From contig NZ_CP012643.1 of the NCBI RefSeq assembly GCF_001310085.1, positions 3,083,501 to 3,147,500 on the forward strand: DNA of 64,000 nt, in the 5' to 3' direction. Numbering within the stretch: the stretch's first letter is position 1; each line of letters begins with the position of its first letter. The notes beneath the pieces were generated by a model, which ran no database searches, was not told where the DNA came from, and worked only from the letters and a program-made list of their open reading frames with translations. The DNA comes from Rufibacter tibetensis (GTDB lineage Bacteria; Bacteroidota; Bacteroidia; Cytophagales; Hymenobacteraceae). The translations under genes and the position numbers were made by a program. Of this stretch, positions 1 to 7,435 are shown in pieces.

Positions 1-1598
1 TGAGGAGTAAGAAAGTAGTAAGCCGTGGTCAGAGCCGGTTTGGTGGAAGCATTTGAGTTTTCCTGCATTGCCTGCTCTATGGTAGAAAAGGCATTGGTGA
101 GTTTTAAAGCCACTATTCTGGAAATGACATATTTCTGTACTAACCCAGAGGGGCTTTGCAGCAAGGGAAGTAGGCGCTTCTCCAGGTTTTGGTCCCCCGC
201 TCGTTCCAGCAACTCCAGAGCTAATATTACTTCTTGCGGATTTTTGCTGTTTAGTTTGTCCATCAAAAGAATCTTCACCGACACATCATTCAGAAACAGC
301 TCAGACCCGGTGAAATACCCTTTCTTCAAGGCGTTGACCAGAGAGCGGAGGTACTCTTTCTTTATCAGGAAGATAGAACCAATCCAGGCTATTAGCAGAC
401 CTACCAATATCTGGGTAACTAAAGTGATTGAAATATTGCCGTACAGGTAATTGTACCCCGTTAAGAATACGCCACTAATCATTAAGGCAATAGGCATGGT
501 GTAACCTTTTGAAATGAGGTGCCCTTTTAGCCTTGAGTGTGGGTCAAGGGGCTGGAAAAGCACAAGGAATGCGGGCTCCTGCACCGCTGATTTCAGCACC
601 TCAGACAGCAGTACCATTACCCCAAACATGATGAAGATATTAGTTTGGTTTTCAAAGGGCAGCAGCATGATGATGGAGATGGTCAACAATATTACAGGTG
701 CCAATAACAGGGAATTTGTTAACCCCAGCCGGCTGATCACCCTGCTGCTAAGCATCAGTTTTACCATTATGGCCAGGACCCTTCCAACCGCGAAGAACAT
801 TCCTAAGAAGGCCGCAATCTCAGGGCTCGTGTAGTACCTTGATTTTACCTCAGACAGGAACGTGTAATCTACCAGGGAATAGACCGTGAAGACTATCACT
901 GAGAAAACCGCAATAGAGAAAATAAGATGGTTATGGAAGTGCTTGGCTATGAAAGTTTTTTCTGGCACATGTTCATGGTGCACGGCATGACCCAGATCAG
1001 AGATGGCTTGGTGCTCAAAATTCCTCAGGAAGAAGAAAGCCAACAGAAAGCTGCCTATGGTTACCCATAACAAACTCTCCACCCCCAACACTGGGGCTAG
1101 AACAGACGCTGCCGTATACCCAAACATCTTAGCCGGTATGTCTCCGGCTCCCACCACAAAAAATAAACGTTTACTTTCCCGTACATTGAAGATAATGGCG
1201 GCCAAGCCCCAGAAAGCGTAGCCTATTAACATGTACACAACCATGTTCCAGGCCGCCAGGAAAAAAGGCAGCCATTTAGCTGGAACCAAAGTCAGTCCGG
1301 CCCAGGAGAGGAAAATGGAGATAGCAGAGAAGAGAATGACCGTTTGTAACAGCTTTTTAGGGCTTAACCTGGTTTCAAGTTTCCCATAAAAGAGGTTCGT
1401 GATCAGCATCAGTACTGCTGAGACGATGTATACTTTTGGAAAATCTTTGAGCTCAAAGGCGTCAAGGAACATGGCCAGCGTACCAGTAAAGAGGGTAGAC
1501 GTGGCAATACCCAAACAAAACTGCACCAGGAACAACTGCTTCACCACCCTGGATTCAGCAGTTTTGATATTCAACAGCAAATTTATTCTGCTATTCAT
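1..1598 (-). CDS. NTT/MFS-like membrane transporter with HEAT-repeat tail (3' end outside window)
   Basis: Open from an ATG at 1598 down to base 1 without a stop, so 532 residues are visible and the C-terminus lies off the window. The N-terminal ~420 residues are a polytopic membrane domain of about 12 hydrophobic segments. It includes a YSLVDYTF-type segment followed by an FLGMFFAVGR stretch, resembling ATP/ADP-translocase (NTT/Npt)-like members of the MFS. From about residue 430 the protein becomes soluble and leucine-rich with helical pairs (ILALELLERAGDQ, LLPLLQSPSGLVQKYV) typical of HEAT repeats. Family knowledge: Bacteroidota proteins of this build can carry a further C-terminal cyclic-nucleotide-binding domain, but that part is not visible here. 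Substrate is unknown. It is divergent from the adenylate cyclase at 2827, with two small genes between. Confidence 0.8.
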   Translation of the reverse strand, partial: MNSRINLLLNIKTAESRVVKQLFLVQFCLGIATSTLFTGTLAMFLDAFELKDFPKVYIVSAVLMLITNLFYGKLETRLSPKKLLQTVILFSAISIFLSWAGLTLVPAKWLPFFLAAWNMVVYMLIGYAFWGLAAIIFNVRESKRLFFVVGAGDIPAKMFGYTAASVLAPVLGVESLLWVTIGSFLLAFFFLRNFEHQAISDLGHAVHHEHVPEKTFIAKHFHNHLIFSIAVFSVIVFTVYSLVDYTFLSEVKSRYYTSPEIAAFLGMFFAVGRVLAIMVKLMLSSRVISRLGLTNSLLLAPVILLTISIIMLLPFENQTNIFIMFGVMVLLSEVLKSAVQEPAFLVLFQPLDPHSRLKGHLISKGYTMPIALMISGVFLTGYNYLYGNISITLVTQILVGLLIAWIGSIFLIKKEYLRSLVNALKKGYFTGSELFLNDVSVKILLMDKLNSKNPQEVILALELLERAGDQNLEKRLLPLLQSPSGLVQKYVISRIVALKLTNAFSTIEQAMQENSNASTKPALTTAYYFLTP

Positions 1599-1990
1599 GT
1601 AAGTAGGTAACTAGGTGATTCCATTTCCTTCTTTGTTTTTTCGTGCGTAAGGTATCTCTGATGTGATCTGAGAGATATTCTCAGGAAAAGCGGGGCGTGA
1701 AGGTGTTACTACTACTTCCGGTTAAAAGCTCATTACTGCATATTGGTATTGGTTAGCTCATGTGATTTTACCTGATCTGTATCTTTTCCAAGGTGTTTTC
1801 CTGAAATCGATTCAAAAGAAGACGCAGCCGGTTGGCCATAAAACTTTGGGTGCTAGCTGCAACCTACAACCTACAACTTATTTGGTTTACAGGTACTACG
1901 CTTCCTTTTATAAATGAAGGTGTGTAATGTTCTTGAAATCAATAAATTAAGGTAGAATTTTGAGAAGCTAGGGCGGGAGGTAGGGAATTG
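1599..1990. other. Intergenic region with a decayed apex-type hairpin
   Basis: No convincing gene. It holds a weak inverted repeat at 1782-1819 with arms TCTTTT and AAAAGA around a GTTTTCCTGAAA core, a member of the hairpin family found throughout the window. A short tandem repeat (CAACCTA twice, near 1860) lies downstream. The 5' leader and promoter of the minus-strand transporter gene should be here, but no clear TAnnTTTG box was identified. Confidence 0.4.
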
Positions 1991-2362
1991 TTACCTCTTG
2001 GTTCTGCTTTCTATGGCAACTGTACCCAGTAAAAGGAGAGCGGCTAACAAAGCAACTTTAGAAAGCAAGTCCTGAGGGATGTAGTCCTTTTGGGCCCGGA
2101 GCTTCTTTACATTTTTGGCTCCGTCAAGGGAAATGCGTTTGTCTACATCATAGTCAAAAGAAACCTCATTGTCTTTCTTAAATTGCCCTTTAAGGGCATC
2201 AAACCAGACTATATCAGAAGAGTCGTAGACTTTAACATACACTCTCCTCTTGTCTTTTTTAGCTGGTCCATCCCCATTCCTGGCAGAGTAAGTAGCCATT
2301 AATGGATCAGAATCACTTTCACTGCTTTGTGGCCTTACGGCAATTACAACTCCTTGTGGCAT
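1991..2362 (-). CDS. Small protein with MPQG N-terminus and C-terminal membrane helix
   Basis: 123 residues, family not recognised. The N-terminus (MPQGVVIAVRP) resembles that of the next upstream small gene (MPRGQVVPVKP). The middle is charged and rich in Lys/Asp, with a YVKVYDSSDIVWFDAL segment. The C-terminus carries one hydrophobic helix (about residues 101-117) followed by a basic tail (ESRTKR). This suggests a tail-anchored or single-pass inner-membrane protein with its bulk in the cytoplasm. There is no signal peptide. It lies head-to-tail behind the small interrupted gene at 2399-2677, only 36 bp after its final stop, and upstream of the partial NTT-like transporter. It is likely a real gene because the start motif and topology are shared with its neighbour. 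Function unknown. Confidence 0.65.
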   Translation of the reverse strand: MPQGVVIAVRPQSSESDSDPLMATYSARNGDGPAKKDKRRVYVKVYDSSDIVWFDALKGQFKKDNEVSFDYDVDKRISLDGAKNVKKLRAQKDYIPQDLLSKVALLAALLLLGTVAIESRTKR

Positions 2363-2398
2363 AATGATATAGGTTTAAGGTTGAAGAAAGAATGAAGA

Positions 2399-2524
2399 TC
2401 AGGCTGTTATGATTATCCAAAAGATGGTCAGGCTCAGGAATCTCAAGGCCTGTTTAGACATACTAAACCAGTCAAAACCAGATATAGATTTGAAGGTGTT
2501 TGGTAGCAATCTTACCAAGGCATC
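2399..2524 (-). other. In-phase continuation of the 2525-2677 small gene after a TAG codon
   Basis: After the TAG at 2525-2527 the same phase stays open for another 41 codons until a TGA at 2399-2401. It encodes DALVRLLPNTFKSISGFDWF and then a hydrophobic helix (LRFLSLTIFWIIITA) at the very C-terminus. That C-terminal helix matches the topology of the paralogous 123-residue protein at 1991-2362. It may be the lost second half of a longer ancestral gene, a readthrough extension, or a separate 20-residue hydrophobic peptide starting at its internal ATG. Confidence 0.35.
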
Positions 2525-2677
2525 CTAATGTTCAGGATCGTTGTTCCCTGATGGATCTTCTTCCTCCTGCATAGGATCTTTATTTGACTCATCCTCGGGT
2601 AAGATGGGGTCCTTATCCTCTTCTCTGTCATCTTTGAAAGAGATGGGTTTAACGGGTACTACTTGTCCTCGTGGCAT
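2525..2677 (-). CDS. Very small acidic protein with MPRG N-terminus (possibly truncated)
   Basis: 50 residues, starting MPRGQVVPVKP and continuing into a strongly acidic tail (EDKDPILPEDE, MQEEEDPSG). The N-terminal motif MP[R/Q]GxVxxV[K/R]P is shared with the gene 36 bp further downstream, so the two are probably paralogs. The reading phase continues past the TAG stop into a membrane-helix-encoding segment ending at 2399. That suggests the 50-residue product is a truncated form of a 92-codon gene, unless TAG is read through. No function can be assigned. Confidence 0.45.
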   Translation of the reverse strand: MPRGQVVPVKPISFKDDREEDKDPILPEDESNKDPMQEEEDPSGNNDPEH

Positions 2678-2826
2678 AATCCTGTTTTTCTAAGGTGGAA
2701 CATTTATCTATATCATGACTCTGTTGCTTTGATTAAAAATACAGTTTAAATAATTTAAATGCAATACAATATATAAATCGCACAAAAAATGTATATTCAG
2801 TATTCATTACCTCAAAGAATACTGCG

Positions 2827-5800
2827 ATGATTAAATATTTAATTATTCCTATATTCATTTTGATGGGTAATCTTAGGTTGCTGGCGCAAGTAGGTAATCC
2901 CTTTATCCAGACTTTTGAACCTGCCGCTTACAGGAGTGATGCCTATATCTCCAGTCCCCAGAACTGGGGGTTAATACAGGACAACCGGGGTATTATTTAT
3001 GTGAGTAATACAAGCGGTATTCTGGAGTATGACGGCGCTACGTGGCAAGCAGTGCAGGGCACCAACTACCAGGGCAACTTTCAATTAGCAAAGAACAGCG
3101 AAGGCAGAGTATTTGTAGGCGGCAACCAGGACATAGGCTATTTAGCACCTGATTCAACTGGCAAAATGCAGTTGGTTTCCTTGCTGCCTCATCTCAAAGG
3201 AAAATACAAAGACCTAAGCGTGACAAAGGTGGCCTCCATTGGCAGGGATGTCTATTTCAGTACAAAGAATACAATTTTCAGGTGGTCTAACGGAGGCTTT
3301 AAAGCGTGGCACAGTAGCACCGGTTTTGCCCGTGTTTTTTCCTGCCGTAATCAGTTGTATGCCATTGATAAAGAAAAAGGCCTTTGTGTACTGGAAAAGG
3401 ATCAACTCAAAGCACTTCCAGACACTAAAAAAGTAGGCGGGTTAACAGTAACGGCCCTTCTTCCACTTCTACCAACCACAGGGTCAAAGCATAATCTCCT
3501 TCTGGTTACTTTTGATAAAGGACTTTATACTTATCAAGACCATGTCCTGCAGAAGCTGGAGCTTAGTCCTGCACCTGAGTTTGGGGAGGCGCAGTTCATG
3601 CACGGAATCATGTTGGCAGATGGAACCATCGCCCTGGCCACTACTACCAAAGGGGTCATCATCATAAATCATCAGGGCAGGGTGAAAAAGGTAATAGACA
3701 AGCAGGCTGGCTTAAATGACAATACGGTTTTGCACCTCTTCAAAGATAGGGAAGGAGGGTTGTGGGCAGGCCTCAACATAGGGATAAGCAGAATAGACTA
3801 TCCATCGCCTGTTGCTTTCCTGAATGGATCTTCCAGGTTGGAGGGGTTAGTCCTTTCGGTTCTAAAGAAACGGCAGAACCTGTATGCCGGTACTACTTCC
3901 GGGTTATATGTAGCAGATGTCACCAGTATTGAACCCTCTTTCCAGAAATTTCCTCAATTGCAGAACGAGGTCTGGAAAATTTTGGATCTGGGAGACATGC
4001 TTCTGGTCTTGAGTTCTACGGGTCTCTACCAGCTTTCAAACAAAGTTTTGAAGAAGATTTCTCCAGTAAATGGGGGAGGTATTTACAAGACTATTCACCA
4101 GTCACAAAAAGACTTAAATAAGTTCTATGTAGGGTCCTCTGAGGGCTTGTATATTGTTCTGAATCAGGATGGCAGGTGGAAGTGGGAGGGGAAGGTGAAA
4201 GGGGTGAACCATGATGTTACCTGGCTGACAGAGGATCAAAAGAATAAGGTATGGGCAACCTGTGAAAACAACATCTCGGTCATAGATGCAGCAAGTGAAT
4301 ATGGGTTGCAACCCCCGGTGCAGAACCTGAAGCCTTCACCTGAAACAGTCAAGAAACTGACCAGGTTTGAGGTGCATAGTATAAACGGCAACATCTACTT
4401 TGGTACCAACAAAGGCATTTACAGCTTTCAGAAAAGAGGGAAGCGCCTGCAACTGGAGCCTGACAAGACTTTTGGGAGCATGTTTGCAAACGGCTCTAGA
4501 GAGGCCATCAACCTGACCCCCACCTCGAACGGGGAAATCTGGCTTACGTCTGAGTTTAGAACCGGTCCTTTGCGTAAAGTGAAGGGAAACGCCTATGTAT
4601 GGGATACCATTCCCCTGAGCATGATGCCCAATCAGGATGTCTGGACAATACATCCAGACCCGCAAGGGGTAGTATGGATGGGTACCACCGATGGAATCTT
4701 CAATTATAATTCTTCTATCGCCAAAAACTACCTCACCAAGCCCCATACTGTGCTTAGAAAGGTAAAGCTGTTAGGGGACTCCACCGTATTCTTTGGAGCT
4801 TTCGAAAACAAGGGAATTGCCTCCGTAATCCAATCCCTGGAATTCAGGCTTACGCTTCCCCACGCCATCAGGTCTATTAGGTTTGAGTTTGCGGCCACTT
4901 CCTATGATGCTCCGGCTAAACTTCAGTACAGCTATATGCTGGAGGGCGAGGACAACAATTGGTCGCACTGGACGCCTGAACGGAGGAAGGAATATACCGG
5001 CCTTGACGAGGGAAGCTATGTGTTCAAAGTGAAAGCAAGGAACATGTATGGCACCGAAAGCGTGGTGTCCAGTTTTGCATTCACCTCTCTGCCTCCCTTC
5101 TACCGGACCTGGTGGGCCTATTGCCTCTACTTTATTCTTTGGGTAGGATTCATCTGGGGGTTTGTCCAAATCAAGCACCGGAACCTGGTTGCCTCAAAGA
5201 ATTACCTTGAAGAACTGGTGCATCAGCGCACCATGCAGTTAGAGGCCGAAAAGCAAAAATCAGATGAGTTGCTGTTGAACATCCTTCCTGCTGAAACAGC
5301 CGAAGAACTAAAGGCCAGAGGCAGAACCCAAGCCAGGAGTTATGAAAATGCCACAGTGCTCTTCACTGATTTTAAAGACTTTACCAGAATAAGCCAGGAT
5401 CTTACCCCAGAAGAGTTGGTAACGGTCATTGACTTTTACTTTTGTGCGTTTGACGGCATTATTTCTAAGTACAACATAGAGAAAATAAAGACCATGGGCG
5501 ATGCCTACATGTGTGCCGGCGGAATCCCCAACCCAGAGGCTAACACCCCGGCAGATGTGATAAAGGCCGCCATGGAAATTGTAGCGTTTGTGGAGCGACT
5601 AAACCCACCAGACAAACCCAAAAAGCATAAGTTTGAGATAAGGGTGGGCATCCATACCGGTCCGGTCGTAGCCGGAATTGTGGGTACCAAGAAGTTTGCC
5701 TATGATATTTGGGGAGATACCGTAAACACAGCGGCCCGTATGGAGTCTAGCGGGGTAGAAGGAAAGATAAATATCTCAGGTGCTACCTATGAGCTCGTCA

Positions 5801-5928
5801 AAGATGAATTTATTTGCTCTCACCGCGGAAAAGTAGAAGCTAAAAACAAAGGCGAGATTGATATGTACTTTGTAGAAGCTGTGGTTGAGAAACAAGTTCT
5901 GGAACACAGTCATGTGCAGAGCTTTTAG
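2827..5928 (+). CDS. Periplasmic beta-propeller (Reg_prop/Y_Y_Y) sensor fused to class III adenylate cyclase
   Basis: 1033 residues. A signal peptide (to LLAQ, about residue 21) leads into ~650 residues of WxG and GLY-type propeller blades (VWAGLNIGISRID, VWMGTTDGIF) like the periplasmic sensors of hybrid two-component systems. A Y_Y_Y domain follows (about 677-758), then one membrane helix (about 761-783) and a coiled coil carrying the cyclase-linker motif LLLNILPAE. Instead of a histidine kinase, the C-terminus (about 842-1020) is a class III nucleotide cyclase. Metal-binding Asp848 (LFTDF) and Asp892 (TMGDAY) are present. Adenine-selecting Lys888 and Asp960 (YDIWGD) and transition-state Asn967 and Arg971 are also present, so it should be an active adenylate cyclase making cAMP in the cytoplasm in response to an extracellular, perhaps glycan, ligand. 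Confidence 0.93.
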   Translation: MIKYLIIPIFILMGNLRLLAQVGNPFIQTFEPAAYRSDAYISSPQNWGLIQDNRGIIYVSNTSGILEYDGATWQAVQGTNYQGNFQLAKNSEGRVFVGGNQDIGYLAPDSTGKMQLVSLLPHLKGKYKDLSVTKVASIGRDVYFSTKNTIFRWSNGGFKAWHSSTGFARVFSCRNQLYAIDKEKGLCVLEKDQLKALPDTKKVGGLTVTALLPLLPTTGSKHNLLLVTFDKGLYTYQDHVLQKLELSPAPEFGEAQFMHGIMLADGTIALATTTKGVIIINHQGRVKKVIDKQAGLNDNTVLHLFKDREGGLWAGLNIGISRIDYPSPVAFLNGSSRLEGLVLSVLKKRQNLYAGTTSGLYVADVTSIEPSFQKFPQLQNEVWKILDLGDMLLVLSSTGLYQLSNKVLKKISPVNGGGIYKTIHQSQKDLNKFYVGSSEGLYIVLNQDGRWKWEGKVKGVNHDVTWLTEDQKNKVWATCENNISVIDAASEYGLQPPVQNLKPSPETVKKLTRFEVHSINGNIYFGTNKGIYSFQKRGKRLQLEPDKTFGSMFANGSREAINLTPTSNGEIWLTSEFRTGPLRKVKGNAYVWDTIPLSMMPNQDVWTIHPDPQGVVWMGTTDGIFNYNSSIAKNYLTKPHTVLRKVKLLGDSTVFFGAFENKGIASVIQSLEFRLTLPHAIRSIRFEFAATSYDAPAKLQYSYMLEGEDNNWSHWTPERRKEYTGLDEGSYVFKVKARNMYGTESVVSSFAFTSLPPFYRTWWAYCLYFILWVGFIWGFVQIKHRNLVASKNYLEELVHQRTMQLEAEKQKSDELLLNILPAETAEELKARGRTQARSYENATVLFTDFKDFTRISQDLTPEELVTVIDFYFCAFDGIISKYNIEKIKTMGDAYMCAGGIPNPEANTPADVIKAAMEIVAFVERLNPPDKPKKHKFEIRVGIHTGPVVAGIVGTKKFAYDIWGDTVNTAARMESSGVEGKINISGATYELVKDEFICSHRGKVEAKNKGEIDMYFVEAVVEKQVLEHSHVQSF

Positions 5929-6702: not shown

Positions 6703-6724
6703 ACCCTAAAAAAGCTGGTTGCCT

Positions 6725-7435
6725 ATGCAGCAAGAAATAGAACAGAAAAGTAAGAATGCAGGTGCTTTCCTGGCGGTGGTCTCGCTCCAGATGATGGTGT
6801 TATGGCTAGTGTTTGTAGGGTCTGCCTTTCTATTTTTTTGGATGGCGACGGTGGTCTTCATTGAACAGGAAAAAGAACTGGACCAGGCCGCCTTTGCCTT
6901 TGCTGCAGACCTCACAGACCCGCAGACCACAGAGGTCATGTACTTCATTACGTTTTTCGGGTCTAAGGATTTTCTCATTTATGGGTCGCTGGGGTTAGCT
7001 TTTCTGTTTTTGGTTTTCAAAAAATGGCGCTTTTACTCCCTCAAGATCATTGCCATTTCAGCCACCACCACGCTCTTTAACCAAAGCATGAAATTTCTCT
7101 TTGACCGTCCCCGGCCGGAGACTGCTTTCTTGGAACAAGGAGGCAATAGCTTCCCCAGCGGGCATGCCATGATTGGGGGCGCGTTCTGGGGTTTGCTCGT
7201 GTACCTGGTTTGGACCAACTTGCATAACAAATGGCTAAAATTGACCTTGTGCCTTCTGCTGAGCATTTGGATCTTCCTCATCGGCTTTAGCCGGGTGTAC
7301 CTGAATGTGCACTATGCTTCTGACGTGCTGGCCGGGTGGGCTGCGGGGATTTTCTGGCTGATCATTGCCATCTTTCTGCTAAACAAACTGCAGCAAAGGT
7401 TGGGCCGAAGGGTAGACAAGCAAATGGAGAACTAA
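6725..7435 (+). CDS. PAP2-superfamily membrane phosphatase
   Basis: 236 residues from the ATG at 6725; an in-phase TTG two codons upstream is a less likely start. Five to six membrane helices carry the three PAP2 signatures: a KFLFDRPRP motif, a SFPSGHAM motif (catalytic His) and a SRVYLNVHYASDV motif with the nucleophile-assisting Arg and catalytic His. The family dephosphorylates phosphatidic acid, phosphatidylglycerophosphate or undecaprenyl pyrophosphate at the inner membrane; which substrate applies cannot be told from sequence. An unusually long loop separates the first two helices (about residues 40-75). It is divergent from the hypothetical gene at 6349-6702 and about 155 bp before fabV. 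Confidence 0.92.
   Translation: MQQEIEQKSKNAGAFLAVVSLQMMVLWLVFVGSAFLFFWMATVVFIEQEKELDQAAFAFAADLTDPQTTEVMYFITFFGSKDFLIYGSLGLAFLFLVFKKWRFYSLKIIAISATTTLFNQSMKFLFDRPRPETAFLEQGGNSFPSGHAMIGGAFWGLLVYLVWTNLHNKWLKLTLCLLLSIWIFLIGFSRVYLNVHYASDVLAGWAAGIFWLIIAIFLLNKLQQRLGRRVDKQMEN

Follow-up and report, generated by a model that had tools for sequence, protein, structure and literature searches.

In a 64,000-nucleotide stretch of the Rufibacter tibetensis genome (the window, G000:C1:3083501-3147500) and its left flank, read as L014 (window position = L014 position - 6000), a locus has been identified which, judged from its sequence, is probably a transport cassette controlled by cyclic AMP (cAMP). Its parts are a predicted propeller sensor-adenylate cyclase, a divergently oriented transporter with an NTT membrane domain and HEAT repeats, a small gene for a cyclic nucleoside monophosphate (cNMP)-binding protein and a convergent HD-domain gene. 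An earlier note on this DNA had proposed a module in which an external ligand drives cAMP synthesis and cAMP controls the transporter. The core of that proposal gains strong genomic support, with a cassette-bearing cNMP gene behind the transporter and cyclase adjacency far above chance; it has to be amended in that the cNMP domain belongs to a separate protein and the small open reading frames (ORFs) counted as parts look unrelated. The components are as follows.

Window 3..1598, minus strand: NTT-HEAT transporter, N-terminal 532 of 921 residues; the gene runs on to the left as far as C1:3082333 (L014:4833).
Window 321..1598, minus strand: 12-helix NTT (MFS-type) membrane domain, approximately residues 1-426, from an AlphaFold2 model with PDB match AtNTT1 9j3m.
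L014:4427-4873, left of the window, minus strand: cNMP-binding gene, 148 residues; its ATG lies 41 nt inside the transporter 3' end, in a different frame.
L014:3817-4443, left of the window, plus strand: HD-domain gene, 208 residues, convergent with the cNMP gene, with a 17-nt overlap.
Window 2827..5928, plus strand: predicted propeller sensor-adenylate cyclase, 1033 residues, divergent from the transporter.
Window 4900..5079, plus strand: Y_Y_Y domain of the cyclase, residues 692-751 (Pfam).
Window 5329..5877, plus strand: class III cyclase catalytic domain, residues 835-1017 (Pfam), with Lys888 and Asp960 of adenylate cyclase (AC) type.

The transporter and the adjacent cNMP-binding gene

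The complete transporter has 921 residues and contains a HEAT repeat (HEAT_2, 41.3 bits, residues 569-634 in Pfam); the gene at the left edge of the window (3-1598, minus strand) is thus correctly described in the earlier note as a divergent NTT-like transporter with HEAT repeats. The label "NTT-like" is owed to profile and fold matches and not to Pfam, as the TLC family (PF03219) has no match to the window transporter at E up to 1, nor at 0.1, and matches one of 19 transporter relatives (best E 0.0038). A profile built from 57 relatives retrieves from PDB the NTT1 proteins of C. pneumoniae (9j3n, E 1.2e-10) and Arabidopsis (9j3j, E 1.3e-6). The AlphaFold2 model of the membrane domain (pLDDT 88.3) has AtNTT1 9j3m as its best PDB match (Z 37.4, rmsd 2.8, 412 residues aligned); the top three structure matches are all AtNTT1 or CpNTT1 (Z 37.4, 35.3 and 31.1), the best other MFS entry scores 27.1, and two further NTT1 entries fall among the MFS rows, at only 25.3 and 25.2. 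In the model of a fused homologue (L146) helical repeats are seen and the membrane part is again closest to AtNTT1 (Z 36.5), the pTM of 0.52 leaving its domain arrangement too uncertain for use. By its predicted fold, the window transporter is an NTT.

It is possible, but unlikely, that the NTT-HEAT/cNMP pair acts as a cAMP effector whose NTT part has ceased to transport and serves as a membrane sensor of nucleotides (ATP/ADP or NAD) or as a scaffold signalling via the HEAT repeats. An identity of only 17-20% to characterised NTTs in the structural alignment and the single TLC match among 19 relatives would suit such a role, and the cyanobacterial and Chlamydia NTT fusions were uncharacterised as of 2017, according to a report of that year (PMC5381601). 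This explanation is countered by eight charged residues of the membrane part that are invariant in 57 sequences (R140, R144, D153, K157, K252, R356, H360 and K364) and by a fold match that spans the whole membrane domain.

The transporter had also been suspected to end in a cNMP-binding domain. When the part left of base 1 was scanned, Pfam revealed no such domain in the 921-residue protein; the suggestion fails to the letter, and a separate coupled gene, directly behind and overlapping, takes that place. The ORF in question (L014:4427-4873) matches PF00027 with 62.6 bits, the highest of nine PF00027 places in the genome, and its phosphate-binding cassette is intact (GELSILDAEPRSASA). The Glu and Arg of this cassette act in phosphate binding by cNMP domains. 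The cassette motif occurs in 112 of 115 cNMP domains of relatives (duplicates included); L110 carries a variant motif with Glu and Arg kept, and in L066 and L108, both from one genome, the two residues are lost. Elsewhere in the R. tibetensis genome another PF00027 domain contains an in-frame TGA (G000:C1:2132643-2132906), possibly a broken Crp-type regulator.

The cNMP gene is separate from the transporter in all 23 close orthologues (the own locus included; the other 22 are 39-66% identical), with (i) a 41-nt overlap (n=2); (ii) a 14-nt overlap (n=4); or (iii) an ATG 5-11 nt past the stop (n=17). In the distant loci fetched, the domain is fused in frame to the transporter in 16 of 16, and the fused or split state changes a single time on a tree of 97 rows, a quick tree that gave long-branch warnings. 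Because the two are fused in relatives, it is argued that the transporter and the cNMP protein work as one. A programmed frameshift or an assembly error between the two genes was considered and rejected, given that all 23 close orthologues show the split, in three geometries, each of them having an ATG with a similar MLLIEK-type start. In comparison with R. glacialis, the cNMP gene shows a non-synonymous divergence (dN) of 0.10 and a synonymous divergence (dS) of 1.33, which indicates purifying selection; dN is far below dS for the transporter, cNMP, HD and cyclase genes alike, dS values above 1 being near saturation.

The sensor-cyclase and its co-localisation with the transporter

The Pfam scan of the ORF at 2827-5928 revealed Reg_prop, Y_Y_Y and Guanylate_cyc (185.5 bits) domains, and all six active-site residues that had been named for this propeller sensor-cyclase (D848, K888, D892, D960, N967 and R971) are in place. 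In class III cyclases two Asp residues bind metal, a Lys and an Asp bind adenine, and an Asn and an Arg act on the transition state; Lys888 and Asp960 are the adenine-type pair. A signal-like N-terminus and one later hydrophobic segment, judged by eye, suggest that the propeller/Y_Y_Y part is periplasmic.

The neighbourhood was compared in a family sample of 150 genomes, in which the transporter was found in 82 and the cyclase domain PF00211 in 116; all PF00211 counts in the sample hold among the matches listed, which were counted down to about 69 bits, and near partners may therefore be undercounted. The distance limits of 6 and 8 kb are the analyst's own choice. Cyclase and NTT/HEAT genes do co-occur in relatives, a point that the earlier note had put forward for checking: a listed PF00211 match lies within 8 kb of 75 of the 100 NTT places counted (coordinates entered by hand, nine short secondary rows of high-scoring segment pairs left out), in 73 of the 82 genomes, where uniform placement would give 0.67. 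Where an NTT genome has exactly one listed PF00211, this stands beside NTT in 35 of 36 cases, and PF00211 is listed for 81 of the 82 NTT genomes versus 35 of the 68 others.

With named genomes added (Rufibacter, Pontibacter, Segetibacter, Spirosoma, Dyadobacter, Larkinella, Emticicia, Siphonobacter, Hymenobacter and others), the set came to 99 different loci, of which 66 have a cyclase no more than 6 kb away and 57 an HD gene no more than 1 kb away; 80 of the cNMP-bearing loci extend 6 kb or more to either side, and in 57 of these a cyclase is found within 6 kb. Unsupervised clustering of the neighbour ORFs at the same loci returned NTT itself (97 loci) and then a cluster of about 478 residues (73 loci, 93 ORFs), 5 of whose 93 ORFs match a cyclase and whose five scanned members are histidine kinases. 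HD follows with 53 loci, REC-cyclase with 51, single REC with 42 and the separate cNMP gene with 36, before a drop to 18 loci for the cluster after these.

Exchange of the cyclase partner

The usual partner of NTT is a REC-cyclase of about 350 residues in which Thr replaces the adenine Asp, and which is taken to be class IIIb-like; it is accompanied by REC and histidine-kinase genes. A single-domain REC lies within 400 bp of 52 of the 58 REC-cyclases in NTT loci, and the ORF of about 460 residues beside this REC is a histidine kinase in all five NTT loci scanned. Other neighbours occur as well: in L095 a HAMP-cyclase, in L067 a ferredoxin-cyclase, in L197 a zinc-ribbon/AAA cyclase and in the Rufibacter latericius group an Asp-type REC-cyclase. 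Classed by cyclase type, side and strand, the loci show eight combinations, and on the tree the cyclase state changes at least 21 times with absence counted as a state, 18 times for type alone and 14 times for presence or absence alone, the "REC-T" class including rows with the motif unmatched. From the eight combinations and the at least 21 changes it follows that one inherited gene order is no sufficient explanation.

A propeller cyclase stands beside NTT in two of the 23 close-orthologue genomes, namely this one and Rufibacter glacialis, and in no other of the loci compared. On the tree, these two genomes are sisters of four Rufibacter/Sabulibacter loci with a REC-cyclase directly upstream of NTT, for which reason the swap to the propeller cyclase is probably derived. 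Propeller histidine kinases occur near REC-cyclases in the NTT locus L057 (upstream of the kinase, REC and REC-cyclase genes), in L228 of this genome and in L227, so that the propeller sensor type is not foreign to the pathway. In L227 (G008:C1:96000-115000), from a genome with no transporter match, a REC/REC-cyclase pair adjoins the propeller/Y_Y_Y histidine kinase.

Distant loci and a probable case of decay

In a phylum sample the transporter was matched in 28 of 395 genomes, and 27 loci were fetched from 25 of these. No cyclase is present in the fetched stretch of any of the 17 distant loci that have a complete transporter and no cNMP domain on it or directly behind it; an eighteenth (L212) was set aside for a transporter cut by the contig end, and the upstream sequence is limited to 1.6 kb in L198 and to 4.7 kb in L206. 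L213 and L217, both among the 17, carry a gene of cNMP type at another place in the stretch, one that lacks the cassette. Likewise, none of the five distant loci with a cassette-less cNMP domain has a cyclase in the fetched stretch. Among the four distant loci with the cassette, a cyclase lies within 6 kb in L195 and L197; in L196 it is some 7 kb away from the cNMP gene, and none is visible in L194, where the contig ends just behind the gene. Class III cyclases are encoded somewhere in 18 of the 25 distant genomes.

In L199 (cassette lost; 1855-3036, minus strand) and L200 (no cNMP domain; 1122-2327, minus strand) a REC of the same type, 4-5 kb from NTT, is joined to a SpoIIE phosphatase in place of a cyclase; these two loci suggest that beside a transporter with no usable cNMP domain the regulator may have a different output. 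Pontibacter ruber (G104; L108/L230) is the only one of the 82 NTT genomes with no PF00211 among the matches listed. Its cNMP cassette has lost Glu and Arg, and its NTT frame is broken by stops near codon 114, in a single assembly where a sequencing error is possible. Read from these sequences, it is a natural case of joint decay of the putative module.

The 3.7-Mb genome G339 of the same phylum has 68 PF00211 matches, some of them contig-end pieces and many in tandem, and its family-mate G172 has 10. In L231 (G339:C50:60500-75500) eight ORFs run head to tail with 4-nt overlaps at six of seven junctions, and the three scanned combine TPR with a class III cyclase. In R. tibetensis itself, a 1744-residue protein with Ser/Thr kinase, AAA_16, GAF and class III cyclase domains is encoded on a separate 235-kb contig (G000:C2:161986-162534; L226:3331-8562).

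Proposed mechanism and alternative explanations

In the proposed scheme an external ligand would bind the propeller/Y_Y_Y sensor, and the cytoplasmic class III domain, whose catalytic residues are present, would make cAMP. The small cNMP protein, in view of the gene overlap and the fusion in relatives, may act as a detached C-terminal subunit of NTT-HEAT and, having the binding residues, would bind cAMP. In its cAMP-bound form it would switch a transporter of NTT fold, presumably a nucleotide antiporter, via the HEAT solenoid. The convergent HD protein might end the signal by cAMP hydrolysis or act on the transported nucleotide, which is the weakest step. Most relatives with an adjacent cyclase would receive a two-component input (histidine kinase, REC and REC-cyclase), in place of which a one-component sensor-cyclase would serve here. 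A wider formulation is offered more tentatively, at slightly less than an even chance: a portable Bacteroidota cassette in which interchangeable sensor-cyclases (REC, propeller, HAMP, ferredoxin and other) produce local cAMP, a subunit with the cyclic-nucleotide-binding domain (cNBD) gates the NTT nucleotide antiporter, a dedicated HD hydrolase is included, and the lineage of the window has swapped a two-component for a one-component input.

Several observations weigh against cAMP control of the transporter by its neighbour. No listed cyclase lies within 8 kb of 25 of the 100 NTT places, including 6 of the 23 close orthologues, and 23 of the 80 cNMP-bearing loci have none within 6 kb, nearly all of these 23 with cassettes of intact appearance. 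The genomes are related and not independent, and the co-localisation counts ignore kinship; in the control loci lacking the domain or its cassette, all of them from more distant relatives, clade is confounded with trait. In one genome, G008, a REC-cyclase pair is present and NTT has no match. Elsewhere, at C1:1607106 and C1:4424307, the R. tibetensis genome encodes two REC/REC-cyclase pairs; they share 69-78% identity with the pairs beside NTT in L048 and L057, and cAMP could originate there. In five genomes of genus g3 (Pontibacter by its named members) the propeller cyclase lies away from NTT, and one of the five, G052, has no NTT match; in the four NTT-bearing g3 genomes NTT has no adjacent cyclase and the propeller cyclase is elsewhere. 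The propeller orthologues of these five genomes are 60-67% identical over the whole length.

These REC/REC-cyclase pairs and displaced propeller orthologues could mean that the cNMP protein and NTT do act under cAMP, while the propeller cyclase came to this place by chance and the working partner is a REC-cyclase encoded elsewhere. Such an arrangement is rather improbable: R. glacialis has retained the adjacency, with 68% identity of the cyclases and purifying selection, and cyclases of propeller length (above 1000 residues) occur in 6 of the 8 close-orthologue genomes with no adjacent REC-cyclase and in 0 of the 15 that have one (Fisher 0.0003, a value that ignores kinship, the signal being carried by two clades).

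In a Pycsar-like antiphage system, infection would set off cyclic-nucleotide synthesis by the class III cyclase, and the membrane protein bearing the cNMP domain would be the effector. In Pycsar a pyrimidine cyclase is paired with a TIR or simple transmembrane effector, in a defence context. The PADLOC TIR-effector/PycTIR models match the cNMP protein at a best E of 1.9e-17, and the PycC models match the cyclases (best E 1.4e-15 for the window and 1.2e-25 for the REC-cyclase of L084); general domains are common to these models and probably account for the matches. As the AC-type Lys/Asp pair is retained in the window cyclase, the scanned genes beside REC-cyclases are histidine kinases, Pfam finds no TIR domain in the cNMP protein or the transporter, and the neighbourhoods recur across genera, a defence function is very unlikely. 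Chance proximity or inherited gene order with no functional link, to which the non-independence of the genomes and the single change of the fused or split state would lend themselves, is hardly credible beside the 75 of 100 places against 0.67 expected and the several cyclase architectures and arrangements found next to the same pair.

The HD gene and neighbouring open reading frames

The H...HD...D pattern of the HD protein is conserved across an alignment of 73 sequences; against solved structures the protein gave weak matches only, with E of 0.4 or worse. Between the transporter and the cyclase two further ORFs are located:

Window 1991..2362, minus strand: 123-residue orphan ORF with a hydrophobic C-terminus, judged to lie outside the module.
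Window 2525..2677, minus strand: ORF for an acidic peptide of 50 residues, set aside as a module part.

Both had been counted as small membrane-tail proteins of the module. The longer one does end in a hydrophobic stretch, judged by eye, but is present in one of 16 genomes of the genus, this genome alone; the shorter one is acidic and has no hydrophobic tail. Neither is counted in the conserved set, for which the genus comparison covered the longer one; both look unrelated and were set aside as module parts. Their N-terminal residues are alike (MPQGVV and MPRGQVV). On either side of the module lie paralogous PAP2 phosphatases, 43% identical to each other (window 6719-7435 and L014:2971-3690).

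Significance and comparison with known systems

Proteins of the NTT-HEAT-cNBD type are widespread, and why free-living bacteria keep a carrier of ATP/ADP type is a question in its own right. If the proposed scheme is true, cAMP gains a membrane-transport target outside transcription in Bacteroidota, and the complex would be a bacterial cyclic-nucleotide-gated nucleotide carrier.

The architecture and the cAMP idea are already known: Major, Embley and Williams (2017) described NTT-HEAT and NTT-HEAT-cNBD proteins as well as cNBD genes several nucleotides downstream, and proposed that the cNBD may bind cAMP from an adenylate cyclase and adjust NTT (ATP) uptake (PMC5381601). Cyanobacteria and Deltaproteobacteria also have members of the NTT-HEAT-cNBD group, according to the same paper. 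The locus resembles that group, as far as it is described there, in the NTT domain, the HEAT repeats and a cNBD that is fused or just downstream; it differs in that a cyclase of varying type adjoins the pair. In the passages covered of the NTT-HEAT literature, PMC5381601 among it, no cyclase, REC, histidine-kinase or HD neighbourhood and no exchange of cyclase type is described. With a likely maker, a binder and a candidate hydrolase of cAMP at one locus, and with the maker varying in type, the speculation of 2017 becomes directly testable in environmental bacteria.

Compared to the NTT1 ATP/ADP translocators of Arabidopsis and C. pneumoniae (PDB 9j3j-9j3o), the transporter is alike in membrane-domain fold and in distant profile similarity; the differences relate to the 17-20% identity and to the HEAT repeats and cNBD, which the aligned structures, judging from their listing, do not include. 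The cyclase shares its Pfam domain and six catalytic residues with class III adenylate cyclases of AC type (Lys/Asp), whereas on the input side it has a propeller/Y_Y_Y sensor that spans the membrane once, and not REC. The same Reg_prop and Y_Y_Y sensor is found in propeller histidine kinases, where the output is HisKA/HATPase in place of a cyclase. With Pycsar the locus shares a class III cyclase and a cNMP-binding effector domain; in contrast to Pycsar, it has AC-type residues, a transporter as the predicted effector and, in relatives, two-component inputs.

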